Assembly: GCF_009674675.1 (NCBI RefSeq)
Contig: NZ_WKJC01000001.1
Coordinates: 751,031 to 815,030 of the forward strand
Source: Kangiella sp. HZ709
GTDB lineage: Bacteria > Pseudomonadota > Gammaproteobacteria > Enterobacterales > Kangiellaceae
Direction: 5' to 3'
Length of the DNA stretch: 64,000 bases
The notes beneath the pieces are model-generated. The model ran no database searches. It saw nothing but the letters and a program-made list of their open reading frames with translations, and was not told the DNA's origin. The translations under genes were made by a program, and so were the position numbers. Numbering within the stretch: position 1 is the first letter of the stretch; each line of letters begins with the position of its first letter. Below are positions 419 to 26,102 of this stretch, in pieces.

Positions 419-1069
419 GTTCACGGTTAAATTGGCACTAGAAGCCGTACTTGCACCTAAGCCGGTATCTAAGGCACCTGCCGCAAATTGATTGGTAAAG
501 GTACCGCCTGTTGAGCTGGTTACATCAACAGTGATAGTACAAGAGCCAGGTGAACCTGAAGGAATAGTTGCTCCTGAAGCCAATGTTATAGATCCAGCTC
601 CCGCTGCAGCAGTGAGTGTTGCACTACCACAAGTGGTTGATGCATTAGGGGTCGGAGCAACAACTATGCCAGAAGGTAAAGTGTCAACTAAATTCGCTTG
701 TAAAGTGGCAACAAAAGAATTGTTATTGGTTAAAGTTATAGTCAGGGTTGATACCTGACCAACATCAATTGTTAAAGGCGAAAATGATTTGGTGGGCTGC
801 GGAATGTTAGCTAGTAGAGAGTTAGTATCACTAGCACACGCTTTTTCAGGATCATCTGCGTTATCGGTAGTGAAGTCGGTACCTGGTATACAGGCCGGCG
901 GGCCATCAGTATTATTCGATAAATCAGGATCGGTTACGCCAGCAGGTAAAGTTACGGTAACTTTGTTAGTAACTGTTGCAGGGTAATCAGCAGAGATTGC
1001 ATAGCTGCTCAGTAACATGAGGCCGGAAATTAGCGCAGCTTTTTTCAAACTAATGAAAAATTTATTCAT
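1..1069 (-). CDS. Secreted DUF11/cadherin-like tandem repeat protein, N-terminal part
   Basis: This is the N-terminal 356 residues of a protein that continues past the left edge. It opens with a Sec signal peptide (K-rich start, hydrophobic core, cleavage near SYAISA/DYP). Residues of roughly 80-200 form a DUF11-like beta-sandwich module (PLTIDVGQ, DTLPSGI, SCTITVD). From about residue 215 it changes to Ig/cadherin-like modules with the motifs ATDDSNTVAEDGSITG, FNADGSYDYSPDANFNGTD and FTYIITDADGD. Such modules are typical of very large calcium-dependent adhesins or cell-surface proteins. The module region is GC-richer than the AT-rich N-terminal part and is repeated at DNA level. The ATG at 1067-1069 fits the signal peptide. 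The exact role is unknown; adhesion or biofilm matrix is inference. Confidence 0.8.
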   Translation of the reverse strand, partial: MNKFFISLKKAALISGLMLLSSYAISADYPATVTNKVTVTLPAGVTDPDLSNNTDGPPACIPGTDFTTDNADDPEKACASDTNSLLANIPQPTKSFSPLTIDVGQVSTLTITLTNNNSFVATLQANLVDTLPSGIVVAPTPNASTTCGSATLTAAAGAGSITLASGATIPSGSPGSCTITVDVTSSTGGTFTNQFAAGALDTGLGASTASSANLTVNDTPTATDDSNTVAEDGSITGASVAGNDTLGGDGGDLATAFSLDTDVSNGTLTFNADGSYDYSPDANFNGTDSFTYIITDADGDTDIATVTITVTAVDDTPTATDDSNTVAEDGSITGASVAGNDTLGGDGGDLATAFSL

Positions 1070-1144
1070 AATGACTTTAACCAGTAGGTCACAATTAAGT
1101 TTGTTTTAGTAATTGTTTTCCTTAATCAATTGCATGCTCCTAAA

Positions 1145-1172
1145 ACATAAATAAATGAGGCTTTATTTATGT
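1145..1172. repeat. Perfect 11-bp inverted repeat upstream of the repeat protein
   Basis: ACATAAATAAA and TTTATTTATGT flank the loop TGAGGC, 76 bp upstream of the repeat-protein ATG on the minus strand. It may be an operator or a hairpin in the 5' leader. Neither arm is followed by a T-tract that would make it a clear terminator. The rest of 1070-1418 is AT-rich and shows nothing else I can name. Confidence 0.5.
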
Positions 1173-1418
1173 ACCCTTCAAGCGCAATTACTTTTATATA
1201 CAGGATAGTATATTTGAATTTAACTTATTTGCTATATGTTATTGATAGTATTATTAAAATGTAAATTAAGTCATATTTGCATTAACAAAAGAAAAGCGAA
1301 TAAAAACAATGGCTTACAAGAAAAAGAGAGTTCAATCACATTTCTATAGATTTTACATTGCTGATACAAATCGATACACATAATATTTTTAAGGGAAACT
1401 AGTGATTTGTTTGAAAAT

Positions 1419-1495
1419 TGGTCGGAGCGAGAGGATTTGAACCTCCGACCCCTTGCACCCCATGCAAGTGCGCTACCAAGCTGCGCCACGCTCCG
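1419..1495 (-). tRNA. tRNA-Pro (anticodon GGG)
   Basis: This 77-nt cloverleaf reads 5' from 1495. The acceptor stem is CGGAGCG/CGCTCCG and the D arm carries AGCTTGGTA. The anticodon stem CTTGC/GCAAG holds the loop ATGGGGT, giving anticodon GGG. The T arm contains TTCAAAT, and the discriminator A is followed by an encoded CCA. It decodes CCC and CCU proline codons. Its place beyond the ihfA-merR end of the translation block is common in gammaproteobacteria. Confidence 0.96.
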
Positions 1496-1530
1496 ATTTG
1501 TTGCTGATAGTCGAACGAATCAACAGGCAT

Positions 1531-1560
1531 TAAAAATGCGGTGCCAATGGTACCGCATCT
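1531..1560 (-). terminator. Rho-independent terminator after merR
   Basis: On the minus strand ATGCGGT pairs with ACCGCAT around a short imperfect inner stem and is followed by TTTTTA. It lies about 30 nt past the merR stop and should end the ihfA-merR transcript before tRNA-Pro. Confidence 0.65.
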
Positions 1561-1592
1561 TTTGGTATTTGCAAGAATTTACATCAGTAAAT

Positions 1593-1952
1593 TTAAGCAG
1601 CTGTAAGTAGTTCTTTGATTTTCTCTAATTCTTCTATTAAATCATCGATTTGTGCTTTAGAAGGTCCAGAAGATTGTTCCGTTTCTTCGCCTTCATTTAG
1701 ACACTGTCTAGCACCACCAATTGTATAGCCATTCTCATATAATAATGAACGGATTTGACGAACTACTAATACATCACCTCTTTGATAATAGCGTCTATTG
1801 CCACGTCTAACAGGATCAAGCTGCTCAAACTCTTGTTCCCAGTAACGCAAAACATGAGGTTTTACTGCACATAGCTCGCTAACTTCACCAATGGTAAAGT
1901 AGCGTTTCGCCGGGATCGGCGGTAATTCGTTATTATTGGTCGGTTCCAACAT
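1593..1952 (-). CDS. MerR-family transcriptional regulator
   Basis: This 119-residue protein has an N-terminal MerR winged-helix domain at about residues 16-85 ([20 protein letters not shown], then [13 protein letters not shown]). A short acidic helix at about 95-119 probably dimerises. No cysteine-rich effector site is visible, so it is not an obvious metal sensor. It belongs to the small MerR proteins found directly after ihfA in many gammaproteobacteria, whose targets are poorly known. Its ATG lies inside the end of ihfA (20-nt overlap), so the two genes are probably translationally coupled and cotranscribed with pheST. Confidence 0.9.
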
Positions 1953-2232
1953 AATGAGTTACTTTCCCTCTTAATTTTTGTCCAGGTTTAAACGTCACCA
2001 CACGCCTAGCGCTTATGGCCACCTCTTCACCAGTTTTTGGGTTTCTTCCAGGGCGTGATGCCTTGTCACGCAATTCAAAGTTACCGAATCCTGAAAGTTT
2101 AACATTATAACCATCTTCTAGGGCATCTCTGATTTCTTCAAAAAAGCCCTCAACGATTTCCTTTGACTCACGCTTATTTAGACCTAATTCCTCGTATAAA
2201 CGTTCTGCCATATCGGCCTTGGTTAATGCCAT
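1933..2232 (-). CDS. ihfA: Integration host factor alpha subunit
   Basis: This 99-residue HU/IHF-family DNA-bending protein is of usual length for IhfA. It starts [20 protein letters not shown], carries [20 protein letters not shown] with the DNA-intercalating beta-arm proline region, and ends [13 protein letters not shown]. It pairs with IhfB, which is not in this window, to bend DNA in promoters, recombination and replication. It lies 41 nt after pheT in the same orientation, which is the classical pheST-ihfA arrangement. Confidence 0.96.
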
Positions 2233-2273
2233 AGTTTATCCTCTCATTATCAACTGCAACTCAAACTACTTAA

Positions 2274-4652
2274 TTAAGCTCTAAGTGTTGCAGAGAAGCT
2301 TTGCTCAAGACCGCTAATTAGTTTATCCATAACTTGAGTGATTTCACTCTCTTCCAAAGTTTTCTCTGGATGCTGCAAAGTCATGGCTATTGCGACGCTT
2401 TTCTTTCCTGCTTCTAGATGTTCACCTCTGTATATATCAAAAATACGCACATCTGTCATCAAGTCAGCACCATTTTTTACAATAAAATCAATCAATTCCG
2501 CACCTTTTACCTGATCTTCGACCACTAAAGCCAAATCTCGGCGGATTGATGGAAATTTTGATAGAGAATGAAATTGAGGTAATTGACGCTCTGAAATAGC
2601 TTCTAAATCTAACTGGAAAACGAAGCTTTCCATGTCTAAATCAAGTTCTTGTTGTAATCCTGGATGGATTTTTCCAATGTAACCAACTTCCTTGTCTTGG
2701 TGAATAATTATCGCCGACTGTCCAGGATGCAGAATGTCTTTTTGAGTAACGTCAAAGCTATAGTCTAATTTCGTTAAATCTAAAACAGATTCTAGATCGC
2801 CTTTCAAATCATAAAAGTCGACTTTACCACCATCATCATTCCATTGTTCTTCTAGACGCGAACCACCAATCAAACCAGCAATGGTTGGGATTTGTTTAAG
2901 TTCAGTCCCTGAGTTATCAAATCGCAAGCCAATTTCAAATAGACGCACACGAGATTGTTGACGGTTAACGTTAAATTTCGCAGCCTGAACCAGGCCTGCT
3001 AGTAAATTAGTACGCATAACCCCTAATTCATTAGAGATTGGATTCATTAACGGTAATGGTTCATCACCAGGCTGTAATTTCTTTTGTAATTCAGGCTCAA
3101 CAAAAGAATAAGTTATCGCTTCTTGATAACCACGATCAACCAACACTTCGCGCATTTGATTTTTCCAGACGCGATTTTCGGGCAGGCGATACATGCTCAT
3201 TTCCGCAACAGGCTTACGCGTTGGTAGATTGTTGTAACCAAATACTCTAACCAACTCTTCTATCAATGACTCTTCATTATCTATATCAAAACGGAACGAA
3301 GGAACTAACACGTTCCAACCTTCAGAGTTGGTTGTTAACTCTAAACCTAAACGCGTCAAAATGTCTTCAACTTGCGTATCTTCAAAAGCAAAACCCACTA
3401 GCCTTTCGATTCTTGCACGACGTAAAATTAAATTCCTTTTCTCTGGTAAATGTTCAGTATTTACCGCTTCAATAATTTCGCCAGCTTCACCGCCTACAAT
3501 ATCCAATAATAATTCTGTAGCGCGCTCCATAGCTGTGCGTTGTAATTCAAAATCGACACCACGTTCGTAACGATGAGATGCATCTGTATGCAGACCATAT
3601 TGACGAGCACGCCCAGCGATGGCAACTTGATCAAAATAAGCTGACTCTAAAAAAACGTCTTTAGTTTTTGAGTTGATGCCAGAAAATTCACCGCCCATAA
3701 CTCCAGCAATAGCTAACGATTTTTTATGGTCAGCAATCATTAAAGTATTATCGGAAAGGTTAACTTCTTGGCCGTCCAGTAAAGTTAGCTTTTCATCTTG
3801 CTTAGCCATTCGCACATCAATACCGCCATTGATATTGTTTAAATCGAAAGCGTGCATCGGATGGCCTAATTCCAATAATACAAAATTAGTTATATCAACC
3901 ACAGGATCGATTGAGCGAACACCTGAGCGCTCTATTTTTCTAACCATCCAGTCTGGAGTTTTCACACTTGGATTAATCCCTTTTATAACTCTTCCTAAAT
4001 AACGTGGGCATGCATTAGGAGCAGAAAGGTCGATCTGTAAAACATCTTTTATAGTAGCTTCAATCGGTCTAGGCTGAACTTCATTAACTTCAGTTTGGGT
4101 TAAAACACCAACTTCACGAGCGATGCCGCGAATACCTAAACAATCACCACGGTTTGGCGTTAAATCCACATCAATTTCTGTGTCATTAAGTTGCATATAA
4201 TCGACAAAATCTTGGCCTATTACTGCATCCTCAGACAACTCCATAATACCATCATGATCTTCGCCCAAATTTAACTCTTTGGTTGAACACAACATTCCAA
4301 ATGAAGCCACACCGCGAAGCTTCGCTTTCTTAATTTTAAAATCTCCCGGTAAGACAGCACCGATCATCGCAACAGCAACTTTAATACCTTTTCTAGCATT
4401 TGGCGCACCACAAATGATTTGCAAATCTTCATCTGATTTATCGCCTACATTAACGCTGCACACTTGCAATTTGTCTGCATCTGGGTGTTTTTCTGCAGCA
4501 ACAATTTCGCCAACGACTACTTTAGAAAAATTATTCCCTAAAAATTCAAATGCATCAACTTCTAACCCAGCCATTGTTAATTTCTCTACTAACTCTTCAG
4601 TAGAAATATTTGGATTAACCCATTCTCTTAACCAATTTTCACTAAATTTCAT
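2274..4652 (-). CDS. pheT: Phenylalanine--tRNA ligase beta subunit
   Basis: At 792 residues this is the normal bacterial size. The order runs MKFSENWLREWV at the start, an EMAP-like tRNA-binding OB fold at about 40-150 (ICGAPNARKGIKVAVA), B3/B4 editing domains at about 210-400 (CPRYLGRVI, GHPMHAFDLN, ASHRYERGVD), B5 with the catalytic-core-like fold, and the C-terminal anticodon-binding FDX-ACB domain (FPSIRRDLALVV). It forms the alpha2-beta2 PheRS with PheS and edits mischarged tyrosine. It sits 12 nt after pheS in one operon. Confidence 0.97.
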   Translation of the reverse strand: MKFSENWLREWVNPNISTEELVEKLTMAGLEVDAFEFLGNNFSKVVVGEIVAAEKHPDADKLQVCSVNVGDKSDEDLQIICGAPNARKGIKVAVAMIGAVLPGDFKIKKAKLRGVASFGMLCSTKELNLGEDHDGIMELSEDAVIGQDFVDYMQLNDTEIDVDLTPNRGDCLGIRGIAREVGVLTQTEVNEVQPRPIEATIKDVLQIDLSAPNACPRYLGRVIKGINPSVKTPDWMVRKIERSGVRSIDPVVDITNFVLLELGHPMHAFDLNNINGGIDVRMAKQDEKLTLLDGQEVNLSDNTLMIADHKKSLAIAGVMGGEFSGINSKTKDVFLESAYFDQVAIAGRARQYGLHTDASHRYERGVDFELQRTAMERATELLLDIVGGEAGEIIEAVNTEHLPEKRNLILRRARIERLVGFAFEDTQVEDILTRLGLELTTNSEGWNVLVPSFRFDIDNEESLIEELVRVFGYNNLPTRKPVAEMSMYRLPENRVWKNQMREVLVDRGYQEAITYSFVEPELQKKLQPGDEPLPLMNPISNELGVMRTNLLAGLVQAAKFNVNRQQSRVRLFEIGLRFDNSGTELKQIPTIAGLIGGSRLEEQWNDDGGKVDFYDLKGDLESVLDLTKLDYSFDVTQKDILHPGQSAIIIHQDKEVGYIGKIHPGLQQELDLDMESFVFQLDLEAISERQLPQFHSLSKFPSIRRDLALVVEDQVKGAELIDFIVKNGADLMTDVRIFDIYRGEHLEAGKKSVAIAMTLQHPEKTLEESEITQVMDKLISGLEQSFSATLRA

Positions 4653-4664
4653 TTTGGTAAATCC

Positions 4665-5768
<1,104 letters not shown>

Positions 5769-5808
5769 CTAAATTTAGAATTAAAAAATATTTAAATTTA
5801 AATTAGGA

Positions 5809-6168
5809 TTAAGCTTCTAGGGCAGATTTTGCTTGTTCTGCAAAAGCAGCAAAAGCTACTTTGTCGAACACTGCCAATTCAGCTAGCATTTTACGGTCAA
5901 CTTCAATCTCTGATTTTTTCAAACCATTGATGAACTTGCTGTAAGACAAACCGTTTACACGAGCTTCAGCATTAATACGAGCAATCCATAAAGCACGGAA
6001 TTGACGTTTGCGCTGACGACGGTCACGGTATGCATATTGACCAGCTTTAATTACAGCTTGCTTAGCTACACGGTATACGCGCGAACGAGCACCATAATAA
6101 CCTTTAGCTTGCTTTAAAATTTTCTTGTGACGAGCGTGTGCAGTCACACCACGTTTTACTCTAGGCAT
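5809..6168 (-). CDS. rplT: 50S ribosomal protein L20
   Basis: At 119 residues this is full length for bL20. The basic N-terminal extension ([19 protein letters not shown]) threads into 23S rRNA, followed by the helical globular domain ([41 protein letters not shown]). L20 is an assembly protein of the large subunit and in E. coli represses the rpmI-rplT message. It follows rpmI by 14 nt. Confidence 0.98.
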
Positions 6169-6182
6169 CTTTTAATCCTCTA

Positions 6183-6380
6183 TTAACCGTTAGGAAGCAT
6201 ACGATCGATTTGCTTGGTATCGGCAGCATCTACCAATTTACCATGACGCAAATGACGCTTACGCTTAGTGGATTTCTTGGTCAAAATATGACGCAAGTGT
6301 GCTTGTTTGTGTTTATAACGGCCTGAAGCTGTTTTCTTAAAACGCTTCGAAGCACCGCTATCAGTCTTCATTTTTGGCAT
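6183..6380 (-). CDS. rpmI: 50S ribosomal protein L35
   Basis: This 65-residue very basic protein has the bL35 signature ([35 protein letters not shown]). It is part of the large subunit. The 158 nt between infC and rpmI hold no gene. In E. coli the equivalent stretch is where L20 binds to repress translation, and it could serve the same role here, although I cannot show the pseudoknot. The RBS in front of the ATG is weak, which would suit translational control. Confidence 0.97.
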
Positions 6381-6538
6381 AGTTAAATACTCGCATTAGT
6401 TACCCGTTAAGGCCATTGTTCATGCTTGCTCTACTAAAAAGCTAGCAGTCAATCGTTAAAAGCCATAACTAGTTACAAAAACGGACGTTCGGGTTACAAC
6501 ACCTTTCCATCCAACCTATCAAAAAGAAATAAGTGAAC

Positions 6539-7081
6539 TTATTTCTTTTTCTTGGGACCTATCATCATCGTCATTTGACGACCTTCCATAGACGGACGAC
6601 TCTCAACAGAACCGTATTCTTCCAAGTCTTTTTCAACACGCTTCAATAACTCCATTCCGAGCTCTTGATGCGCCATCTCTCGACCGCGGAAGCGAACTGT
6701 GATTTTCGCCTTGTCCCCGTCTTCTAGGAAACGTATCAGGTTGCGTAGTTTTACCTGATAATCCCCTATATCAGTTCCTGGACGGAACTTGATTTCTTTT
6801 ACATGGGTTACTTTTTGTTTCTTTTTGGCAGCAGCTTTAGCTTTTTTCTGCTCAAAACGATACTTACCAAAATCCATGACTTTACAGACTGGAGGTTCAG
6901 CTTCCGGAGAAATCTCCACTAAGTCTAAGCTAGAACCTTTTGCTGATTGTAGTGCTTCATCTAGTGAAACAACGCCAACGTTCTCGCCTGTGGCGTCAAT
7001 CAATCGCACTTCACGTGCGGTGATATCGTCATTTATGCGCTGTCTGTTTTTAAAACCGCCGCGCTTGTCATGTTTTCTAAT
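6539..7081 (-). CDS. infC: Translation initiation factor IF-3 (ATT start)
   Basis: The coding frame extends upstream of the GTG at 7009. Reading on, the frame gives [19 protein letters not shown] and reaches an ATT at 7079-7081, nine nt after an AGAGGG ribosome-binding sequence. From there the product is 180 residues, exactly the E. coli IF-3 length, and the N-domain signature [13 protein letters not shown] is complete. ATT as an infC start is a known device: IF-3 itself rejects such codons and so represses its own translation. The C-domain carries [20 protein letters not shown] and [14 protein letters not shown]-3 binds the 30S subunit and proofreads initiator tRNA and start codons. It lies 57 nt after thrS. 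Confidence 0.95.
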
Positions 7082-7138
7082 GGTAATTACCCTCTGTAAT
7101 AATATTCTTAACTTTGTTTATGTCCGCTATTTAAGTCG

Positions 7139-9052
7139 CTACTTGCGTCCTTTAGCGGCCACTGCTTTCTCAAGCAGTTCTGCAAAGGCTTCAATGCTCA
7201 TGCTTCCTAGGTCTTCACCCTCTCGAGTTCGTACCGCAACATGACCATTTTCGACTTCTCGATCACCAACGACCAAGAGGTATGGCACACGTGCCAAAGT
7301 CTGACCGCGAATTTTAAAGCCGATCTTCTCATTTCTCAAGTCTAAATTGACTCTAAAACCCTTATTTTTCAAAGTTTCTGCTGTTTTTTGGCAAAATTCG
7401 CCCTGTTTGTCCGTAATGTTCATAATTACGGCTTGAGTTGGGGCCAACCAAGCTGGGAATTTGCCCGCATATTCTTCAATCAAAATACCGATAAATCGCT
7501 CTAAAGATCCCAAAATAGCCCGATGCAACATTACTGGAACTGCTTTATCACCATTTTCGTCAATATATTCCGCGCCCAATCGACCTGGCATCGAAAAATC
7601 GACCTGCATAGTGCCACATTGCCAATGACGACCCAGACAATCTTTTAGCGTGAATTCGATTTTTGGACCATAGAAAGCACCTTCGCCAGGTTGGTACTCA
7701 AATTCAATATCGCTGGCTTTCAATGCTTCTGCCAATGCGGCTTCAGATTTATCCCAAACCTCATCCGAACCAACACGCTCTTCCGGACGAGTTGAAAGCT
7801 TCACGATTAAATCAGTAAAACCAAAATCAGCATAAACGTCATATAACAACTCAATAAATTGAGTCACTTCTTCTTGAATCTGATCTTCGGTACAGAAAAT
7901 ATGCGCATCATCTTGAACGAAATTACGCAAACGCATAATGCCGTGTAAAGCGCCTGATGGCTCATTACGGTGACAAGAACCAAACTCAGCCATGCGTAAC
8001 GGCAAATCACGGTAAGACTTCAAACCAACGTTAAATATCTGAACGTGACACGGACAGTTCATTGGTTTTACTGCAAAGTCTTTGTGATCGGATTCAAGCG
8101 TAAACATGCCATCTGAAAATTTATCCCAATGACCCGACTTTTCCCATAATGTGCGGTCAACAATTTGTGGCGTTCTTACCTCTTGATAGTTCTGCGCCTG
8201 TAAACGATCGCGGATATATTGTTCTAAAGTACGATAAATACTCCAACCATTGTCATGCCAGAAGACCATACCCGGTGCTTCTTCTTGTAAGTGGAATAAA
8301 TCTTGCGCTTTACCAATCTTACGGTGATCACGCTTTTCAGCCTCTTCTAAACGATGAAGATAGGCTTTTAAATCCTCTTTTTTCGGCCAGGCAGTTCCGT
8401 AAACCCTTTGCAACATAGGCTTTGTTGGATCACCACGCCAGTATGCTCCAGCCACTTTCATCAATTTGAAAGCTTTTAACTTGGCTGTTGAAGGAACGTG
8501 AGGACCACGACATAAATCAATAAAATCGCCTTGCTTGTATAAAGACAGTTCTTCGCCAGCAGGGATTTCTTCGATGATTTCGGCTTTATATTCTTCGCCC
8601 ATATCGCGGAAGAAACTAATCGCTTCGTCACGGCCCATAATCGAGCGCTCAACTTTTAAGTTTTGCTTCACAATACGATTCATCTCTTTTTCGATGGCTT
8701 TTAAATCTTCATCGGTAAAAGGACGCTCGGTAGCAAAATCATAGAAGAAGCCATCTTCAATCACTGGACCTACAGTCACCTGAACATTATCAAATAAACG
8801 CTGAGTCGCTTGCGCTAATAAATGCGCTGTTGAGTGGCGAATCACTTCTAAACCGTCATCATCACGATCGGTAATAATGGCTAAATTCGAGTCTTTATCG
8901 ATTACGAAACTGGTATCCACCATTTCGCCATCGATTTTTCCGGCTAAAGCGGCTTTGGCTAATCCAGGACTAATGTTATGGGCGACATCGTAAACCGATA
9001 CAGCATCATCAAACTCACGTTTGCTACCATCAGGTAATGTTATGACTGGCAT
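7139..9052 (-). CDS. thrS: Threonine--tRNA ligase
   Basis: The 637 residues are close to the 642 of E. coli ThrRS. In order come the TGS domain ([20 protein letters not shown]), the editing domain with its zinc-like [10 protein letters not shown] motif at about residue 73, the class II core with [11 protein letters not shown] (zinc-binding Cys) and [19 protein letters not shown], and the anticodon domain ([23 protein letters not shown]). It charges tRNA-Thr and hydrolyses Ser-tRNA-Thr. It heads the minus-strand translation block. The 182 nt upstream (9053-9234) show no gene and presumably carry its promoter. Confidence 0.98.
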
Positions 9053-9234
9053 TTTCTGTTCTCTCTGTTTTCAATAAGCCTTACCAACGGCCTATATAAA
9101 GTTTTGGTAATGATTGCCGAAGGTGCTGACTAAGAATGCCGCCCCTTCTTGAGCAATAGATAAGCTAATGATAAAGGATCTGACGCTAGACTCAAGGGTT
9201 AATTTTAAAGCCTCACTGAATGGTTTTGGTCTGC

Positions 9235-9741
9235 TTACAGCTTTAAACCACTCAAACTAATTCTCACCTCTTCATCTGCCATCATTTGTTCATGGTCTAT
9301 AAACACTAATTTTGGATATCCAAACTCTGAGTCGTATTGAACTTCGATTAACTCGGCGCTTTTGGTGGCTTTGTTTAACATTGCAAAAACTTGTTCCACG
9401 GTCTTGATAGCTTCCATGGTTTGTTTTTGGGCCGGTTTATTGTCTTTATCTATTGCCTTGACTATCTTGCCATTGGCTACCGTTAACTGAAATGGCTGAG
9501 TAAATTCTTGCGGGCAAAAGCAGCTTTGTTGAAAAGTTATCTGATAATTACCACTAGTTTTTGCTTCCCAAAGTGCTTTGTGTTCCTGCAAATCCTGCCA
9601 AGTCTGTCCCCGATTATCTATAAAGTTGCCAACTTGTGGTTTTGACTCTGGATAGGGAGTGACTTGCTGTTTACAACCAAAACTCGTGATTAAGGTTAGT
9701 AGCATCAAAAGAATCCAATCTATTTTTATAGTTTTAATCAT
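9235..9741 (-). CDS. DUF6174-like lipoprotein
   Basis: This 168-residue protein has a short basic start, a hydrophobic segment and a lipobox ending at C23 (LITSFGC), so it should be a lipoprotein. The mature part resembles the DUF6174 family: a NYQITFQQSCFC strand near residue 65, a VANGKIVKA strand, and a terminal YDSEFGYPKLVFIDHE motif. The function of that family is not known. Its ATG overlaps the stop codon of the metallopeptidase gene by 4 nt (ATGA), so the two are in one operon and probably translationally coupled. Confidence 0.75.
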   Translation of the reverse strand: MIKTIKIDWILLMLLTLITSFGCKQQVTPYPESKPQVGNFIDNRGQTWQDLQEHKALWEAKTSGNYQITFQQSCFCPQEFTQPFQLTVANGKIVKAIDKDNKPAQKQTMEAIKTVEQVFAMLNKATKSAELIEVQYDSEFGYPKLVFIDHEQMMADEEVRISLSGLKL

Positions 9742-11699
9742 TTGCTATTCTTAGTCTCTTTAAAGTTAACGCCTTTTATATTAACTCCATAGCGTAAGAG
9801 CAACAAGGCTAACAACCACCATTGAGCCAAGCCGCCTCCTGAACCGCCATCATCTGGTGCTGGTGCAGGAGGCGCTGGCGGAGCTTCTAAACTGATACTG
9901 ACTGTATTGGAAGCGCTGGCATCTCCGCCTGCGTTAAAAGCAATTAATCGATAGCTATAATCATTATCATCACTGACATTGGAATCTTGATAAGACATCA
10001 CATTAGATGCAAGCTCAACAATTTGATTGAATGCGCCATTATTATCACTACGTTCGAGTCTAAAACCATCCTCATTATCAGAATTATCAGACCAATTTAA
10101 AGTTACGATATTATTCGATTCTGAAGCCGTTAAATTAGTCACTGCAGCAGGCACCATTATTTGACTGACATTAAAACTAGAAGTTAATTGATTATTAGTC
10201 AAATCTACATCTACAAAGTCACTAGAAACACTGACTTCTTGTGATAATTCGAAGTCGGTAGTTAATGGGGTCACGTTGATATTAATACTAGAAGCCGCTG
10301 AGGGATTTGCTAGTTGGCAATCGAACGAAGCACCATCAGTATCAATTGAGCAAGTGGTGCCTGCAAAGCTAACGACATTAAAACGACCCGTTTGGGCTGG
10401 TATTGATCCAACTAAACCCACTTGATTTAAGGTAGCGCCGCTGGGCAGCTCTAACGAGACATCAAAATTTAAATCAGCTGCTTGCATAACAATCATGTCT
10501 TGCGAATTGCCTGGATCCGAAGCTATCGCTAACTCCAAAGGAAAATCAAAACATGCTTGAGGATTAGTTAAGTCATTATATTCTTGAGTCATTACGTCAA
10601 TCGAACAGCTAGAAAAATTAGTTGCCGAACCGCTTGCGCTAGCGGCCATTACAAAACCAGAACTAGGGCAAGAATTACCATCACTGTCGTGACCTGAACC
10701 AAAGTTATGCCCTAGTTCATGAGCGATAACTAAAGCCGTTATAGGTAAACGCGGAGTCCCTCCCGAACTTGGAATTAAATTGGTTACCCCACTGCTAAAC
10801 CCCGAATTGCTGCACAAAACGCCAACATAGGCTACCCCTGCAGTACTGCCGTCAAAGTTTCGACCTGTCACTACATGCAATAAACTACGTTTGTTCTTAA
10901 TAAAACCTAATTGATCATTGGATTTTCTTTGACGAACATCAGTTAAAAAGTCTCGTGCATCTGTTGTCGTATCAAAAGTTTCTGCTTGTAAAAATTCTAC
11001 AGTGATGCTGTTAAAACGAATATTAAAATCATTTTCATAAAAACCTTCAATAATATTAATTAAAGCATTAGTTTGGCTAACTAATTCGTTAGCTGCAAAA
11101 CGATCTTGATAGAGCTGATCGAACACAAACTCTATCTCGGCAAAACTACAAACACCACCAATGGCATCGGAACAGACTGCTTGCTGCTTGTTATAAGATA
11201 AATACAAAGGTTGCGCTTGAATTTGATGGGAAGTATGTGTCTCATTTTGCTGAGACTCACCTATAAATTGTTTTAAAAAATCCGTTTTTGGATTATGTCT
11301 TTCAGTTTCATGTTCGACTCCGCAACTCGTGTCATGCTGATGAGTATTAAGTGGAGTTAACTCAATAGCATTGCCAGTTACCGAAACAACTTCATAAAGC
11401 TGACCATCTATTGACGCCAGACCTGTCCATTGTTCATTAATTTTAGAAGTTCTGATCCAAGATCTATCATATTGATTAATAGTAGCTTTAAAATGCTCAG
11501 AATTATCTTTCCTAGAATTGGGCGCTTTATGCTTAAAGTTAATCTTGTTCGATAATTGTTGGTTAGCTTTTAACTCGATTGGAATTGATTGGTTTTCAAA
11601 GACCAGCAAGGCTTCTTCTGCTACAGCGTTTATTGAACCTAGTCCAATAATAGCAATGGTTGCTAACCATTTGATACATTTTACTTTTATAGCTGACAT
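9738..11699 (-). CDS. Secreted reprolysin-like (M12) metallopeptidase
   Basis: This 653-residue protein has a signal peptide (about 1-27), a propeptide-like stretch to about residue 160 and a catalytic domain at about 165-380. The zinc motif HELGHNFGSGHD places the ligands at H327, H331 and H337 with the general base E328. A Met-turn candidate (VMAASA) follows, as in adamalysin/reprolysin proteases. Residues of about 390-510 are a DUF11-like module and about 515-605 a fibronectin type III module. The tail (GGSGGGLAQWW, then a hydrophobic run and R) resembles a GlyGly-CTERM sorting signal, normally processed by rhombosortase. Likely role: extracellular protein degradation. Confidence 0.88.
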   Translation of the reverse strand: MSAIKVKCIKWLATIAIIGLGSINAVAEEALLVFENQSIPIELKANQQLSNKINFKHKAPNSRKDNSEHFKATINQYDRSWIRTSKINEQWTGLASIDGQLYEVVSVTGNAIELTPLNTHQHDTSCGVEHETERHNPKTDFLKQFIGESQQNETHTSHQIQAQPLYLSYNKQQAVCSDAIGGVCSFAEIEFVFDQLYQDRFAANELVSQTNALINIIEGFYENDFNIRFNSITVEFLQAETFDTTTDARDFLTDVRQRKSNDQLGFIKNKRSLLHVVTGRNFDGSTAGVAYVGVLCSNSGFSSGVTNLIPSSGGTPRLPITALVIAHELGHNFGSGHDSDGNSCPSSGFVMAASASGSATNFSSCSIDVMTQEYNDLTNPQACFDFPLELAIASDPGNSQDMIVMQAADLNFDVSLELPSGATLNQVGLVGSIPAQTGRFNVVSFAGTTCSIDTDGASFDCQLANPSAASSININVTPLTTDFELSQEVSVSSDFVDVDLTNNQLTSSFNVSQIMVPAAVTNLTASESNNIVTLNWSDNSDNEDGFRLERSDNNGAFNQIVELASNVMSYQDSNVSDDNDYSYRLIAFNAGGDASASNTVSISLEAPPAPPAPAPDDGGSGGGLAQWWLLALLLLRYGVNIKGVNFKETKNSK

Positions 11700-11880
11700 A
11701 CGTTATTCACATCCAAATCAAGATAAGCTTCACACTATCATAATGACTAAGTAAGATTCGCCTGTGAACTAGAACCCAAATCTCAAAAGTCGCCATTAAT
11801 AATTAAAAGTATCAATCAGTTAAGGTATTATATATTCATCAGCTTTCGTAAATTTCATGTTTAGATCAAAGGAAATATTA

Positions 11881-12534
11881 ATGGCAAAATCGGTTGCAGT
11901 TATTCTTTCAGGTTGTGGTTTTCAAGATGGTGCAGAAATTCAAGAGTCTGTTATGACCTTATTAGCTTTAGACCTACAAGGTGCTAGCTACCAGTGCTTT
12001 GCTCCCGATATTGAGCAATTTAAAGTACAAAACCATTTAACAGGCGAATCTGCTTTTGAAAGTAGAAATGTACTTATCGAATCGGCTCGAATTGCACGAG
12101 GTGATATCAAAGCCTTATCCGAATTTGAGGTAGCGAACTTCGATGCTTTAGTGATGCCTGGTGGATTTGGAGCTGCGCTCAATTTATCCACTTTTGCTAT
12201 AGATGGTGCGGCTTGTAAAATTAATTCTGACGTTGAAGCTGCTGTTCGCAAAACCTACTCTGCGAAGAAACCCATCGGCGCTTTATGTATAGCTCCGGTT
12301 ATCTTGGCGAAATTAATTCCTGATGCGAACTTGACCATTGGGAATGATACCGATGTTGCAAAGGCACTTGAGTCAATGGGGGCAAACCACTCTAATAGCA
12401 ATCACGGCGAAGTCCTTGTTGATCCCGTCAATAAACTAGTCACTACGCCCTGTTATATGCTTGACGCCAAAGTCTCAGATATCTACCAAGGTGCTAATGC
12501 CTTAGTAAGAGAGTTAATTACTTTAAGTTCTTAA
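11881..12534 (+). CDS. elbB: Isoprenoid biosynthesis glyoxalase ElbB
   Basis: This 217-residue DJ-1/PfpI-superfamily protein matches ElbB along its length: VILSGCGFQDGAEIQE, NHLTGESAFESRNVLIESARI, PGGFGAALNLS, then the nucleophile region GALCIAPV with the conserved Cys, and TTPCYMLD. ElbB has glyoxalase activity and was linked genetically to isoprenoid synthesis. I place the start at 11881 because AAAGGA lies 8 nt upstream; an in-frame ATG at 11857 has no RBS. It is monocistronic, reading away from the metallopeptidase gene. Confidence 0.93.
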   Translation: MAKSVAVILSGCGFQDGAEIQESVMTLLALDLQGASYQCFAPDIEQFKVQNHLTGESAFESRNVLIESARIARGDIKALSEFEVANFDALVMPGGFGAALNLSTFAIDGAACKINSDVEAAVRKTYSAKKPIGALCIAPVILAKLIPDANLTIGNDTDVAKALESMGANHSNSNHGEVLVDPVNKLVTTPCYMLDAKVSDIYQGANALVRELITLSS

Positions 12535-12583
12535 CATATAATTAAGGCCGGCAAATATCCCACAGCAATGCGATATAGATATG

Positions 12584-12976
12584 CTATTTTGTAGGAGATT
12601 CTAGGCCAGTAAAATAACCTAGAAATCCTTTTGAATTTAGGTAACCTCGAAGACCAATCAAATAAAATGCTAGTAACAAAGCGCTGAAACATTTTATAAA
12701 GCCAATAATGCTAAACAAGGCCGCTAGAGAGACGACAAAGTACAAAGCCACTAAAAGTGCTAAGACATATAAAATACCGCGTAAAGTATTCCAGAGTTTT
12801 TGTCCGCGATACATAATAACCATCTGGCATAAAAATAGACCACCAATCATGGCAGCACTTAGAAATGCTAGAAAGTACTCGCCCTGCCAGTTCATATAAA
12901 CCTGAAACGCTAATACCAATAAAGTAATCATTAATATTGAATTGATAGTTAATACAGTTTTGGCACTTTTAGGCAT
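12584..12976 (-). CDS. Small inner-membrane protein, unknown
   Basis: This 130-residue protein has about four hydrophobic segments (near residues 8-28, 36-55, 67-90 and 92-108), a basic loop YRGQKLWNTLRG between the second and third, and a hydrophilic tail. I recognise no family signature. It converges with elbB and stands just upstream of nothing obvious on its own strand, so the context gives no functional clue. Confidence 0.65.
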   Translation of the reverse strand: MPKSAKTVLTINSILMITLLVLAFQVYMNWQGEYFLAFLSAAMIGGLFLCQMVIMYRGQKLWNTLRGILYVLALLVALYFVVSLAALFSIIGFIKCFSALLLAFYLIGLRGYLNSKGFLGYFTGLESPTK

Positions 12977-13030
12977 CGGATACGACTCTCATCAAAATTG
13001 AGGCATTATTCTAAATTCAACCAACTAGAA

Positions 13031-15034
13031 TTACCATTGCTTAGTAATGCTGATTCCCCACTCGCGACCATTTGCTAGAGGCGCTAGTTCATCCGCCGAT
13101 GAGAAATAGTCTTCATCCAACAAATTATCTAAACTAAATTGAATGCGAAACTTATCATTGAACAGATACGCAAATGAGACATCTGCCAGTAAAGCGTTGC
13201 CTATAAACTTCTCCCCTGCTGCAGTAGGGCTTTTATCTTGACGATACTCCATCCCAAACTTTAGGAGATATTTCTCAGCTTGATAATCAAGCTTAAGCTT
13301 AGAGCGGTGAGAAGGGATATCCACTAGAGGATTACCCCCTTGGTCTTCACCTTCGATGAAACTAGTAAAGAAGCTTAATTTTAGCTCTTTATTTAAGCTG
13401 TAAACTGCATCAAACTCAACACCTTTAATCGTCCCGTCTTGGATATTGCGAAAGCTTAATAATTCAGGGGCAATTTCAACTCTTTCGATATAATCACTGA
13501 CTCTTTGCTGATAAAGATTGGCTGCAAGAGAAATACTGGCGTCAGAATACTTCAGTCCAAAATCGGCACTAATAGAACGTTCTTCTTTTAAATTTGGATT
13601 ACCTTCTACTTCACCTCTTCCTGTAGTACCTTCAAAAAAACGCTCACTGACAGTTGGGAAACGAATCCCCGTTCCAAGTGAAGTTGTTAACAAAAAATTA
13701 TCCGACAAAGCAAATGACTTACCAATAAACCCGGTCAAAGCGTTATTAACAATAGTATTCCTTTGATTATTTTGCTCATTATTAATTAAGCGAATACCGA
13801 GCTGCCATTTACTTGAATCAAAAGCTTTGTTTAAGGTGAAAAACGCTGCTGATTCTCTTTCTGAAGCTCCTGAAAGTGATTCAGTAAGAATCACACTACC
13901 GTCTGTCAATGAAGTGCTTTTATCGGAGGCGTCAATACTATTTCTAACAAAGGTATCCAAACCGTAGAGACCCTCGAAAAGCTGAGCATGCCACTCTTGC
14001 TCAAAATGAAAGCCCCAATCATTCGATTTGTTCTGCACTTCATTTGTCCGGTCTTCAGGGCGCAATGTTAGTGTTTCTACTTGGTTAGGATGTAAATAAA
14101 TAGAAGCTCGCCAGTTATCTGATTGAACCGCAAACTGTCCTAACAGGTGCTCTTCGTTCGGTATAGTCACCACTCTATCGGGAAAGCGAGTGCTTGAACG
14201 TCCTATATCATCACCTCTACTGGCTAAAAGCATCACTTCATAATCTAAATCTTCACTATGCCACTGCTTAATGAAACTTGCTGAATATTGATTATAACCA
14301 TCATTTAATTCTATACCTCTCGCATCTTGCGAATTGTTAGCAAACTGCCCGGCAAAACCTAATGACCAATCCTGACCTGAAGTACCAACGATATGTTGTT
14401 GGCTATTACCCGCTGAGTAATAATCCGTTGTCCAAGAAGTTCCATTGAAAAAACGAGGCTGTATTTTAATAACCCCGCCAAGACTTCCAGATTGATATAA
14501 TGTTGAGGCTGGCCCTTTCTTTACCTCCACTGAGTCGAGTAATAAAGGATGTAAAAAAGACGCAGCTACTCCAGCACGCCTTTCTGCTTTAATGGGTATA
14601 TCCGAAAGATAGGTTAAAACTCTTTGTCTAGAGACCCCGCGAATCGAGTAAGTTTGAAATAAACCTGACTGTCCATTTTCAGTGACACCAGGTATCTCTG
14701 TAATCAAATCCAAAAGTTGGTTAGCTGCGCCGATAGTATCTTTAGGAGTCACATAACTATTTTTAGTGCTCAAGTCAGTAAAGTGTTGCGGTGCTTTTGA
14801 ACTTAACACGGTTATCACCCGAGAATTAGCTTCTTCATTAGGTAACTGCCTTTCTTGCTGGGTTAGCTGCTCAGGTTTTGCATCCTCTGTAGCTTTTGAG
14901 CCATCCACTGATTTTGTGAAATTAGCTTGATCGGTAACTTTACTTTTTTCTTCTTTTAATACTTTCGTAGCTTTCAATTGGAACGAGATTGTTGAAAATC
15001 CTAAAAGAGCAAAAAAACAAATAAATCGAATCAT
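13031..15034 (-). CDS. TonB-dependent outer-membrane receptor
   Basis: This 667-residue protein has a signal peptide (about 1-22), a charged linker, and a TonB-box-like segment (RVITVLSS) near residue 73. The plug domain (about 85-195) contains LLDLITEIPGVTENGQSG, YSIRGVSRQRVLTYLSDIP and VEVKKGPASTLYQSGSLGG. The beta-barrel includes GTGIRFPTVSERFFEGTTG and NPNLKEERSISADFGLKYS, and the final residue is aromatic (GISITKQW) as the BAM machinery expects. Its substrate cannot be read from sequence. No Fur box is visible in the short upstream gap, so iron uptake is not implied. It follows the 1534-residue secreted protein, separated by a strong terminator. Confidence 0.92.
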   Translation of the reverse strand: MIRFICFFALLGFSTISFQLKATKVLKEEKSKVTDQANFTKSVDGSKATEDAKPEQLTQQERQLPNEEANSRVITVLSSKAPQHFTDLSTKNSYVTPKDTIGAANQLLDLITEIPGVTENGQSGLFQTYSIRGVSRQRVLTYLSDIPIKAERRAGVAASFLHPLLLDSVEVKKGPASTLYQSGSLGGVIKIQPRFFNGTSWTTDYYSAGNSQQHIVGTSGQDWSLGFAGQFANNSQDARGIELNDGYNQYSASFIKQWHSEDLDYEVMLLASRGDDIGRSSTRFPDRVVTIPNEEHLLGQFAVQSDNWRASIYLHPNQVETLTLRPEDRTNEVQNKSNDWGFHFEQEWHAQLFEGLYGLDTFVRNSIDASDKSTSLTDGSVILTESLSGASERESAAFFTLNKAFDSSKWQLGIRLINNEQNNQRNTIVNNALTGFIGKSFALSDNFLLTTSLGTGIRFPTVSERFFEGTTGRGEVEGNPNLKEERSISADFGLKYSDASISLAANLYQQRVSDYIERVEIAPELLSFRNIQDGTIKGVEFDAVYSLNKELKLSFFTSFIEGEDQGGNPLVDIPSHRSKLKLDYQAEKYLLKFGMEYRQDKSPTAAGEKFIGNALLADVSFAYLFNDKFRIQFSLDNLLDEDYFSSADELAPLANGREWGISITKQW

Positions 15035-23981: not shown

Positions 23982-24010
23982 CTCCAACAATGAACACTGA
24001 GGAAAAGCGC

Positions 24011-24607
24011 ATGAAAGTTTATGGTGATATGGTTTCTGGTAACTGCTACAAAGTCGCACTGACTTGTGCGCTGTTAGAGTTAGAACATGAATGGATTGCA
24101 ATGGATATCCTAAAAGGTGATGCACGCTCAGAAGAATTTATCGCTAAAAATCCTAACGCAAAAACACCGACTTTAGAGTTAACTTCTGGTGAAACATTGT
24201 GGGAGTCCAATGCCATCATTAACTATTTAGCAGAAAGCTCAGATTTAATGCCAACAGACGCTTGGACAAAAGCCAAAGTGCAGCAATGGCAATTCTTCGA
24301 ACAATACAGTCATGAGCCTTTTATTGCCGTAGCACGTTTTATCAATAAATATTTAGGCCTGCCCGAAGATCGAAAAGCTGAATACGAGTCCAAACAAGAA
24401 GGCGGTCATAAAGCTCTAGCCATTATGGAACAACAGCTTCAACAAACACCCTACTTAGTTGGCGACCAACTCACCACCGCCGACATCAGCCTGTACGCCT
24501 ATACTCATGTTGCTCATGAAGGTGGTTTTGACTTATCAAGCTACCCCGCTATTAACACTTGGATGGAAAGGATTCAGCAGCAGGAAAAATATATAGGGAT
24601 GGAATAA
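24011..24607 (+). CDS. Glutathione S-transferase family protein
   Basis: The protein is 198 residues from the ATG at 24011 (GAGGA 8 nt upstream). An N-terminal thioredoxin fold (MKVYGDMVSGNCYKVALTCA, PNAKTPTLELTSGETLWESNAII with the cis-Pro and the glutathione-binding ES pair) is followed by an all-helical C-domain (DQLTTADISLYAYTHVAHEGGFDL). The exact substrate is unknown. It starts 29 nt after the asparaginase stop and is followed by the DoxX-like gene after 2 nt, so these form an operon. Confidence 0.88.
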   Translation: MKVYGDMVSGNCYKVALTCALLELEHEWIAMDILKGDARSEEFIAKNPNAKTPTLELTSGETLWESNAIINYLAESSDLMPTDAWTKAKVQQWQFFEQYSHEPFIAVARFINKYLGLPEDRKAEYESKQEGGHKALAIMEQQLQQTPYLVGDQLTTADISLYAYTHVAHEGGFDLSSYPAINTWMERIQQQEKYIGME

Positions 24608-24609
24608 CT

Positions 24610-24948
24610 ATGAATAAAGTCGTTTTAGTATTAACTATTATTATAGCTCTTTTAAGTCTTGCAGCAGGTGCAGCTAAAGTCATGCAGACACCCCAAGAAG
24701 TAGAATTCTTAACTGGTCAGGGGTTAAATCTAAATTTGATAATCGCTTTTGGTGTTTTTCAAATATTGGGTGGCATATTGTTATTAGTCCCTAAAACCAA
24801 ACTAATAGGATCTGTTATCAGCTTAATTGCCTTTACAGCTTCAGCAATATTAGTTTTTAACTCAGGTAATATAAACTTTACACTAATATCTATTATTCCT
24901 GTCTTTATATTATTGTTATTAATTTATCTAGATCGAATTAAAAACTAA
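24610..24948 (+). CDS. DoxX-like small membrane protein
   Basis: This 112-residue protein has four transmembrane segments and a DoxX-like pattern: helix 1 with AAGAAKVMQTPQEVEFL, helix 2 with GVFQILGGILLLVPKTKLIG, and two further helices. DoxX-family proteins are small quinone- or redox-linked membrane proteins of varied function. Its start lies 2 nt after the GST stop and its stop 2 nt before the next ATG, so it is translated together with its neighbours. Confidence 0.75.
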   Translation: MNKVVLVLTIIIALLSLAAGAAKVMQTPQEVEFLTGQGLNLNLIIAFGVFQILGGILLLVPKTKLIGSVISLIAFTASAILVFNSGNINFTLISIIPVFILLLLIYLDRIKN

Positions 24949-24950
24949 TC

Positions 24951-26090
24951 ATGAAAAAATATTTAATTGCTACTACTCTACTTTTTATACATGAACTTAC
25001 TTTTGCTAACCATGATTCTACGAAGTGGATTGATGCACCAATAGTTAAAGTTGACATTAAATCTATAGAACCTGGCGAACTAAATACTTACGAGTGGGCC
25101 GGCTTGCCAATTTATGTAATAAAGCTCACATCAAAACAAGCAGAAACTCTTAAAAATATTCCGGTTGATAACGTTGGCGATAAGAAAAATAGTTCACCTG
25201 AGCAACATACTTACAATAATGCTTATTTTCGTGGGTATGAACAATATTTGTTTCAGTTACAAATGCAAGAAAAGCGAGTACAAAACGACATTGTTGTATT
25301 AATAGGACTGTCTCCTTACATCGGGTGCAGCCCCTACTTTAATAGAAATTTATTAGATGGTAGCAAGCCAGATTTTTTGAACGATTATTTCTACTCACCA
25401 TGCAGAGAAGTGTATTTTGATATTTCTGGTAGAGTAATAAAAGGCCATAAACATAAAGAACAACTAAATATGTTGTTGCCTCCCTATGTGTTAGAAAATG
25501 ACAAAATATTAATAGGTAATGACCAAACTTTAAATAAGGAAAAGCTAAGCATATTTCTTGGGGTTTTAAAGCTCGAAAATAAGCATATAGAAAACGAGCT
25601 AGATCTCTATCATGCCATTGGTTTAAATCTAACCAAAGAAATTGCGCGCTATTTTGATCAGTCAAATATGGATATTTCTAAACCCACAGTTTTCGGAGCA
25701 ACGCCGCTGGGCCAGGCCGTTGCTTTCAACCATTTAGAGTTAATAGATCTTTTTCTCCAAAGAGGTTCTAGTTTCGAAGAGCACCTTCCCTCAGGTGAAA
25801 AAGTTGGCTGCTTGTTACAGCATCAGAAAGCTAGCGAGATTGAAAAATACTATAAACTAGGATTTGATCCTTCTATTGGTTATTGTAAAGCTTCTAACGA
25901 TTGTTTTATACCCATAATTCACTCTTCAGCACCTTTGCAATGGGAACCTACGGAAGCAGAAAAAATAGCTTTAGCTCAAAAGCATGGATTTGATATTAAC
26001 AAAAAGTATTGTGGCAAAAGCCTTGTTGAAAGGCTCAAGGCAAATAATCGCGAAAGCTTAATCAGCCCCAACAAAAAAGCCGCAAATTAA
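24951..26090 (+). CDS. Exported degenerate Rieske (PetA-like) domain with ankyrin-like tail
   Basis: This 379-residue protein has a Sec signal peptide (about 1-19). Residues 28-190 follow the periplasmic domain of the cytochrome bc1 Rieske subunit from end to end: VDIKSIEPGELNTYEWAGLP, then IVVLIGLSPYIGCSPYF, then YFYSPCREVYFDISGRV and LLPPYVLENDKILIG. The four [2Fe-2S] ligands of Rieske proteins (C-x-H in the first motif, C-x-x-H in the second) are replaced by S121, Y123, S149 and R152. The two cysteines that form the structural disulfide in Rieske proteins remain (C126, C151). Residues of about 246-280 read as an ankyrin repeat (TPLGQAVAFNHLELIDLFLQ), and the rest is hydrophilic with four more cysteines. 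It therefore keeps the fold but should not bind a cluster. Function unknown; homology is by eye. Confidence 0.75.
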   Translation: MKKYLIATTLLFIHELTFANHDSTKWIDAPIVKVDIKSIEPGELNTYEWAGLPIYVIKLTSKQAETLKNIPVDNVGDKKNSSPEQHTYNNAYFRGYEQYLFQLQMQEKRVQNDIVVLIGLSPYIGCSPYFNRNLLDGSKPDFLNDYFYSPCREVYFDISGRVIKGHKHKEQLNMLLPPYVLENDKILIGNDQTLNKEKLSIFLGVLKLENKHIENELDLYHAIGLNLTKEIARYFDQSNMDISKPTVFGATPLGQAVAFNHLELIDLFLQRGSSFEEHLPSGEKVGCLLQHQKASEIEKYYKLGFDPSIGYCKASNDCFIPIIHSSAPLQWEPTEAEKIALAQKHGFDINKKYCGKSLVERLKANNRESLISPNKKAAN

Positions 26091-26102
26091 TGCGGCTTTT
26101 TT
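26073..26102 (+). terminator. Terminator of the GST-DoxX-Rieske-like operon
   Basis: AAAAAAGCCGCA and TGCGGCTTTTTT form a perfect 12-bp stem around AATTAA, with the stop codon in the loop and T residues following. It can work in both directions, but the gene order favours the plus strand. Confidence 0.92.

Follow-up and report, generated by a model that had tools for sequence, protein, structure and literature searches.

A predicted exported, bc1-type Rieske family that lacks the cluster ligands and often carries an ankyrin or ankyrin-like region

Introduction

What does a Rieske protein do when every residue that would bind its cluster has been replaced? The question is raised by a gene on the forward strand of a 64,000-nucleotide stretch of the Kangiella sp. 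HZ709 genome, which was analysed as a whole and is referred to as the window. The open reading frame (24951..26090, +) encodes 379 residues, which were read as an exported Rieske-like protein without cluster ligands followed by a C-terminal ankyrin-like region. An initial annotation, made from the sequence alone, took it for a bc1 Rieske copy turned into a redox-dead scaffold or a disulfide-based sensor. We compared the protein with known Rieske proteins, collected its relatives, and inspected the sites where their genes reside.

Results

The window protein contains a bc1-type Rieske domain

The protein starts with a Sec-type signal peptide (residues 1-19; 24951..25007, +), which was recognised by eye and has neither a twin arginine nor a membrane anchor. 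The Rieske-like domain follows at about residues 22-190 (25014..25520, +), as delimited by matches to the NCBIfam model TIGR01416, the PDB chain 8smr_C, and PetA (22-192). TIGR01416, which represents the bc1 Rieske subunit, matches residues 21-188 with an E value of 1.5e-17 and a score of 64.2 bits, below the family cut-off of 97.4. The Pfam Rieske model PF00355 has no match in the window protein, and a NirD-type family is listed for it by neither Pfam nor NCBIfam. A phmmer search against the PDB aligned residues 27-192 with the Pseudomonas aeruginosa bc1 Rieske protein 8smr_C (E 2.1e-15), and the PetA of the same genome aligns over 177 columns with 27% identity (E 1e-15). The Rieske relation proposed for residues 28-190 is hence borne out by all three, at E values of 2.1e-15 to 1.5e-17. 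When a profile of three homologues was searched against the PDB, 32 distinct sequences were retrieved at E <= 0.001, all of which are named Rieske or bc1 chains. Since the bc1 model matches the family weakly, its members can be misread as a second petA.

Two AlphaFold models, each built from two sequences, were of low confidence, with pLDDT values of 42.8 and 47.0. In a Foldseek search with the second model, the 50 rows listed were all bc1, complex III, or Rieske entries, at a weak query TM score of 0.37-0.44 and an rmsd of 9-14. With models of such low confidence, the assignment of the Rieske fold rests on sequence.

The genome also has a separate intact petA (G000:C3:1052446-1052991; 209.9 bits), the presence of which had been left for confirmation; it is followed by the cytochrome b gene. 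Its product has an RR near the N-terminus, whereas the signal of the window protein has none, as judged by eye. A plain Sec signal in place of a Tat-type anchor, as initially described, agrees with the sequence to the extent that inspection by eye allows. Neither petB nor petC is among the neighbours of the Rieske-like gene in the window.

The cluster ligands are lost and the disulfide cysteines are retained

Alignment columns place S121 and Y123 at the positions of the first Cys and His ligands (25311..25319, +), and both residues are invariant in the three Kangiella proteins. The first Rieske disulfide cysteine, C126, lies just downstream (25326..25328, +). S149 and R152 occupy the positions of the second Cys and His ligands, with the second disulfide cysteine, C151, between them (25395..25406, +). 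The alignment with PetA gives the same assignment and numbering of these six residues as the initial annotation.

We then aligned the seven members that have a whole Rieske part with 48 PetA rows. These rows were hand-picked, mostly from loci pre-screened as intact, so their full ligand set is a matter of choice and no finding. None of the 28 ligand cells survives in the seven members, and both disulfide cysteines are retained in every one of them. The first Cys ligand is replaced by Ser in five members, Arg in one, and Gly in one, and the first His ligand by Tyr in four, Glu in two, and Gly in one. At the second Cys position six members have Asp and the window protein has Ser; at the second His position Arg, Glu, and Gln occur once each and Ser in four. 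Of the S/Y/S/R pattern, it is the loss of ligands that the homologues share (7/7), not the exact letters, as the Asp at the second Cys position in six of them demonstrates. No member with intact ligands was found, and a sequencing error is an unlikely cause because homologues in other genomes have the same losses.

Two further features separate the family from PetA. The Pro loop has its Pro and Ala in 48/48 PetA rows and has lost both in 7/7 members. The first motif lies 71-78 residues beyond a conserved Trp in the seven members, compared with 57-62 in all 48 PetA rows; this longer distance is a family mark independent of the ligands. In the window protein it amounts to 72, and the stretch holding the extra residues runs from after W49 to before S121 (25098..25310, +). 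The GR and PP positions of PetA, in turn, are shared by the window protein.

In PetA the disulfide ties the two ligand loops together. The spacing between C126 and C151 is 25, within the range of 20-27 in the 48 PetA rows. It equals that of Cys129-Cys154 in Thermochromatium PetA, for which the available text on the crystal structure describes this disulfide and zinc chloride in the cluster site (PMC10492824). Signal peptides were judged by eye to be present in all seven proteins, and each has an even number of cysteines in its mature part (6, 6, 6, 4, 4, 2, and 2); one extra cysteine in the signal peptide of the G001 protein and one in that of the G105 protein, both peptides bounded by eye, stand outside these counts. 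Even numbers fit structural disulfides of an exported protein and argue against a switch.

The C-terminal region is ankyrin-like

The C-terminal region of the window protein covers about residues 215-364 (25593..26042, +) and includes four cysteines (C287, C312, C318, and C354), which are invariant in the three Kangiella proteins and had gone unmentioned in the initial annotation. Its Pfam ankyrin matches are weak and below the cut-off, with E values from 0.016 (Ank_3) to 0.058. Pfam detects no ankyrin repeat at E values up to 1 in the proteins of two other Kangiella genomes (G001 and G010) and of two genomes outside the genus (G042 and G105). In contrast to the window protein, the members in G429 (Pfam Ank_2, E 1.3e-16) and G088 (E 1.1e-9) have clear ankyrin repeats above the cut-off. 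Altogether, five of the seven members have a C-terminal tail, while the G042 and G105 proteins end without one.

The G010 and G429 proteins align by BLASTP over 304 columns (E 4e-14), continuously from the Rieske part into the repeats, and the window and G088 proteins over 250 columns (E 9e-14). Two cysteines with a separation of 5 to 7 residues are a recurrent feature close to where the repeats end. On account of the unbroken G010-G429 alignment and the recurring cysteine pair, we take the tail of the Kangiella proteins to be an ankyrin region that has diverged. When profiles of the tails alone were compared, that of Kangiella was colinear with the two true ankyrin tails over 110 columns (E 0.0058), at a probability of only 6.4. 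The ankyrin-like tail first proposed for the window protein thus has the clear repeats of G429 and G088 and the alignment spanning both parts on its side, and the sub-threshold match of the window protein and the blank Pfam results of G001 and G010 against it.

The family is sparse within and beyond Kangiella

Full-length genes were found in 3 of 20 Kangiella genomes, namely the window genome (G000), G001, and G010. The latter two encode proteins 34-37% identical to the window protein. Four further members (G429, G042, G105, and G088) and one broken copy (G797) belong to other families. Six of the relatives were compared with TIGR01416, and all scored below its cut-off (E 4.9e-8 to 2.1e-14). 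The broken copy (L192:9447-10258, on G797:C400) has lost its middle part and has a frame change; it lies between an ATPase-like and a DNA cytosine methyltransferase-like gene, both named by eye.

Searches with the N-terminal domain mostly met ordinary Rieske genes. Of 58 loci read (29+29), 55 had intact ligands, and the three others were two Kangiella copies and that of G429 (L104). Seven more loci comprised six intact ones and the G042 copy (L123). Among 60 hit open reading frames 52 were intact; the remaining eight were the three Kangiella genes, those of G429 and G042, and, as new finds, G105, G088, and the broken G797. A phylum-wide search, run at a threshold of E 1e-17 that diverged members would escape, gave 27 ligand-intact loci and three without, all three already known. 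The reading covered 30+7 loci for 122 genomes with hits, 30 loci for 162, 30 for 37, and all 30 of the phylum-wide search, so that the census is a lower bound.

More specific queries pointed in the same direction. A profile of the three Kangiella proteins retrieved only these proteins at E <= 1e-25 from 394 genomes of the order, and a profile of the tail retrieved only its own gene at E <= 1e-4 from 369 genomes of the class, a sample to which G001 and G010 contributed no match. In the collection of genome contigs, a single-protein search found no relatives and a profile search found one, in K. taiwanensis. On plasmids, the window protein matched 106 records; each of the 15 listed was petA or unannotated, and none covered 80% of the query. 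The G042 protein had no plasmid match, and the G088 protein matched 16 plasmid records, the 15 listed being mostly matches to the ankyrin region and one petA. Phages gave no match, nor did viral contigs with the profile of the three Kangiella proteins. PADLOC had no match for the window protein and matched only the ankyrin region in 2 of 4 relatives scanned. A 24,177-residue frame with a Rieske hit in G631 was discarded as an artefact, since it runs through masked bases, and the Rieske domain there has its ligands.

Four Kangiella genomes were seen to hold a second Rieske gene with all ligands: G006 (L016/L037), G019 (L025/L038), G013 (L039), and G012 (L040). The three longer of these second genes form a branch of their own (100/98), away from the Kangiella petA rows.

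The Kangiella gene occupies a slot of variable content

The Rieske-like gene of the window is packed closely behind a GST gene (23990-24607) and a DoxX-like gene (24604-24948), both on the forward strand (23990..24948, +); the two overlap, and the Rieske-like gene begins 2 bases after the second. Peroxiredoxin- and bacterioferritin-like genes, named by eye, are near by. We compared this slot in 19 Kangiella genomes. It adjoins an isoaspartyl-peptidase-like gene, with a peroxiredoxin gene on the far side where the contig reaches (both by eye; the pieces L070, L071, L073, and L077 are short). Its content varies, with GST in six genomes, DoxX in five, and the Rieske-like gene in three. In G001 and G010 the Rieske-like gene follows a lipoprotein gene (NlpE_C in G001) and has neither GST nor DoxX beside it, while in other Kangiella GST and DoxX occupy the slot in its absence. 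A tblastn search of 18 slot stretches with the window protein detected only the G001 and G010 genes at E < 0.1. The working link to GST, DoxX, and peroxiredoxin that the initial annotation had suggested does not withstand this comparison, in which the genes occur apart; carriers from different groups, moreover, have no gene in common but the Rieske-like one in the stretches compared.

In the close relatives G015 and G011, blastn and the junction sequences reveal the same slot without the Rieske-like gene. A segment of about 1.17 kb (24903..26068) is unmatched there, its right edge being 26068 against G015 and 26072 against G011. An inverted repeat followed by a T run (26073..26102, +) resembles a terminator by eye and also encodes the last codons and the stop of the gene; a pattern scan did not list it in the window. 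This repeat is common to the G015 and G011 sites, where it follows DoxX. Between DoxX and peroxiredoxin in the closest relative, G011 (L063, on G011:C1), a small AlpA/excisionase-like gene, named by eye, takes the place of the Rieske-like gene and is enclosed by two copies of the terminator-like repeat.

Other genomes hold different proteins in this slot. G004 and G005, two Kangiella species, have other exported ankyrin proteins (Pfam E 1.6e-10 and 3.3e-6). Their genes (L065:3444-4091 and L075:3698-4414, both on the minus strand) encode signal peptides by eye, and the proteins have no useful match to the profile of the Rieske-like family. In G009 the slot contains VgrG, a gene that by eye resembles an adapter, and a frame of the VasX type. 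This frame (L076 and L125; G009:C2:32300-46000) has 1030 residues and a VasX N-terminal domain (Pfam E 5e-22), and is followed by two near-duplicate membrane-protein-like frames, which by eye may be immunity genes. VgrG (TIGR03361) was detected in 6 of 20 Kangiella genomes, none of which is among the three carriers.

The G042 copy is part of an integron-like array

The G042 gene (8652-9191 of L127) is flanked by repeats at 8543-8649 and 9192-9297, which belong to a set of 25 spread over 11.7 kb. From their general features we take them to be attC-like. Small, mostly same-strand genes populate this part of the contig (G042:C12; L127, L188, and L189), with repeats of about 110 bases and more of them beside the 11.7-kb stretch. 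A tyrosine recombinase (Pfam PF00589, E 5.1e-35) is encoded about 20 kb away on the contig, of which bases 1-13999 lie outside the stretch read. A model built from this array found no repeats in the window or in the stretches of other carriers, though it could miss attC sites of a different type.

The remaining copies have various neighbours, all named by eye. That of G429 lies between gltX- and ogt-like genes and changes frame close to the 3' end, perhaps through an assembly error; that of G088 adjoins a lyase-like gene, and that of G105 stands among small exported or membrane proteins. In the stretches read, where most neighbours were named by eye or are unknown, no toxin or cognate effector gene was recognised beside the carrier copies. 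All eight carriers, including that of the broken copy, have a petA above the TIGR01416 cut-off with all ligands, which is common in these groups.

Origin and selection

In the tree the seven members are on one side of a branch, apart from PetA, at 99/96 support, though on long branches for which the program warned of false joins. The AU test did not reject a grouping of the Kangiella homologues with the Kangiella PetA (p 0.31) or with the second PetA (p 0.086). Of the proposal that a bc1 Rieske copy became a scaffold, the bc1-type domain without ligands stands; a recent duplication of this genome's own petA may or may not be its source, with the 99/96 grouping against it and the AU values compatible with it.

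Between G001 and G010, protein identity is 60%, dN is 0.31, and dS is too high to estimate. For the window gene and that of G010, dN is 0.71 and dS 2.49 by NG86, the only one of three pairs for which NG86 gave a dS; YN00 gave no estimate in 3/3 pairs. The alignment of the three Kangiella proteins has 392 columns, 107 of them invariant. Within the limits set by saturation, these values suggest purifying selection on the Kangiella gene. That the Rieske domain is unable to hold a cluster in the known way and is nevertheless selected agrees with the conserved family and the intact petA elsewhere in the genome.

Discussion

The sequences point to a family of exported, bc1-type but cluster-less Rieske proteins that is maintained and in part mobile; five of its seven members have an ankyrin or ankyrin-like region. 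In the window protein, a periplasmic Rieske beta-sandwich would be held by the C126-C151 disulfide in place of the cluster. Such a domain would be redox-dead and carry out no electron transfer, and together with the ankyrin-like tail it may form a binding module. The presence in 3 of 20 Kangiella genomes, the slot without the gene in G011 and G015, and the attC-like flanks in G042 mark the gene as accessory cargo. Combined with the precedents of periplasmic ankyrin proteins, this cargo setting makes an orphan immunity- or inhibitor-type role our best single guess: by analogy, the window protein could be a periplasmic binding protein of the immunity type that binds a periplasmic enzyme or toxin, whether incoming or self-made, in the manner of Tli and Bd3460, a proposal that we put forward tentatively. 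The exported ankyrin proteins that G004 and G005 have in this slot, and the VgrG, adapter-like, and VasX-type genes of G009, also speak for the immunity type, while the lack of a recognised toxin gene beside the carrier copies read speaks against it. The orphan status has to be assumed, as VgrG is absent from the three carriers. Since the G042 and G105 proteins have no ankyrin part, ankyrin repeats alone cannot be the function.

The main rival is a factor directed at the bc1 complex, which we consider rather unlikely. Its dead Rieske head would dock on cytochrome b/c1, apo-Rieske, or maturation partners, and would help assembly or throttle the complex. The bc1-type domain speaks for such a factor, and a Rieske-like factor without ligands has a precedent in TEF5/PSB33 of plants and algae, as far as the available text goes (PMC12164590). 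A ligand-intact petA accompanies the family in 8/8 carriers, but bc1 is so common in these groups that this carries little weight. The residues round the former cluster are changed and the Pro loop is gone in all seven members, the gene is away from petABC in the carrier stretches read, and a patchy presence and a cassette setting would be odd for an assembly factor. A related idea, which is a good deal less probable, is that these Rieske mimics are decoys that sequester toxins or inhibitors directed against the Rieske protein of respiration, or that occupy its docking site. If so, a subunit that once served respiratory catalysis would now serve defence or control and move between bacteria, and weapons directed at bc1 would be indicated.

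The remaining explanations concern the altered residues themselves. That the substituted residues bind a different metal or cofactor, with Asp or Ser beside a retained Cys, is improbable: the change of the second Cys to Asp in six of seven members and of the first to Ser in five is unlike random decay, but no single residue replaces either His (Y, Y, Y, Y, E, E, and G at the first; R, E, Q, S, S, S, and S at the second), and at the second Cys position the window protein has Ser where the other six have Asp. For the disulfide-based redox sensor or thiol switch of the initial annotation one could cite the two cysteines kept in 7/7 members and the peroxiredoxin- and bacterioferritin-like genes near by. 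The latter, however, stand without the Rieske-like gene in other Kangiella, and even cysteine numbers in all seven mature proteins, two of which have that pair alone, are what structural bonds predict; we therefore regard a sensor as very improbable. Decay has its traces in the broken G797 copy and, unless the assembly is at fault, in the 3' frame change of G429. Yet the frames in G000, G001, and G010 are open over their full length at 34-60% identity with the invariant columns given above, dN is below dS wherever dS could be estimated, and homologues with the same losses speak against a dying gene; we regard the chance that the window gene is a relic as close to negligible.

The orphan immunity- or inhibitor-type reading and the family as a whole can be set beside four known systems. 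With PetA (TIGR01416) the window protein shares the sequence blocks of residues 21-190, the GR and PP positions, and the disulfide pair; it differs by the lack of ligands, Pro loop, and Tat-type anchor (by eye), by extra residues and an added tail, and by a location away from petB/petC. NirD, the small subunit of nitrite reductase, likewise has a Rieske-like fold said to be ligand-less; it differs in being a cytoplasmic enzyme subunit. Ligand-less Rieske-like domains as such are already known from plants and algae. PSB33/LIL8/TEF5 of green plants and algae has a Rieske-like domain without iron- or cluster-binding residues, and the available text assigns TEF5 a role in assembly, towards photosystem II (PMC12164590). 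Compared by description, the window protein matches it in this domain. The same text describes PSB33/TEF5 as a chloroplast protein anchored in the membrane by a C-terminal transmembrane helix, and what is available of it mentions no ankyrin part (PMC12164590); the window protein, being bacterial, has no chloroplast targeting, and by eye it has no C-terminal transmembrane helix. In the open-licence PMC literature we found no report of a bc1-type Rieske domain that serves as an exported module held by a disulfide and joined to an ankyrin tail, or that lies in an integron-like array.

The exported ankyrin proteins Tli of Enterobacter cloacae, which neutralises its lipase, and Bd3460 of Bdellovibrio, which neutralises its endopeptidases, are the parallels in proposed function (PMC11470151; PMC4686830 for the pair). 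In the available text of these sources their target gene is adjacent and no Rieske part is mentioned, whereas beside the carriers of the present family no such gene was recognised. The likeness lies in export, with the signal of the window protein judged by eye, and in a C-terminal region whose ankyrin match is below the cut-off in the window protein and above it in the G429 and G088 proteins. If the immunity or inhibitor function is true, the Rieske-like family would add one more fold to the periplasmic immunity or inhibitor repertoire that Tli and Bd3460 represent.
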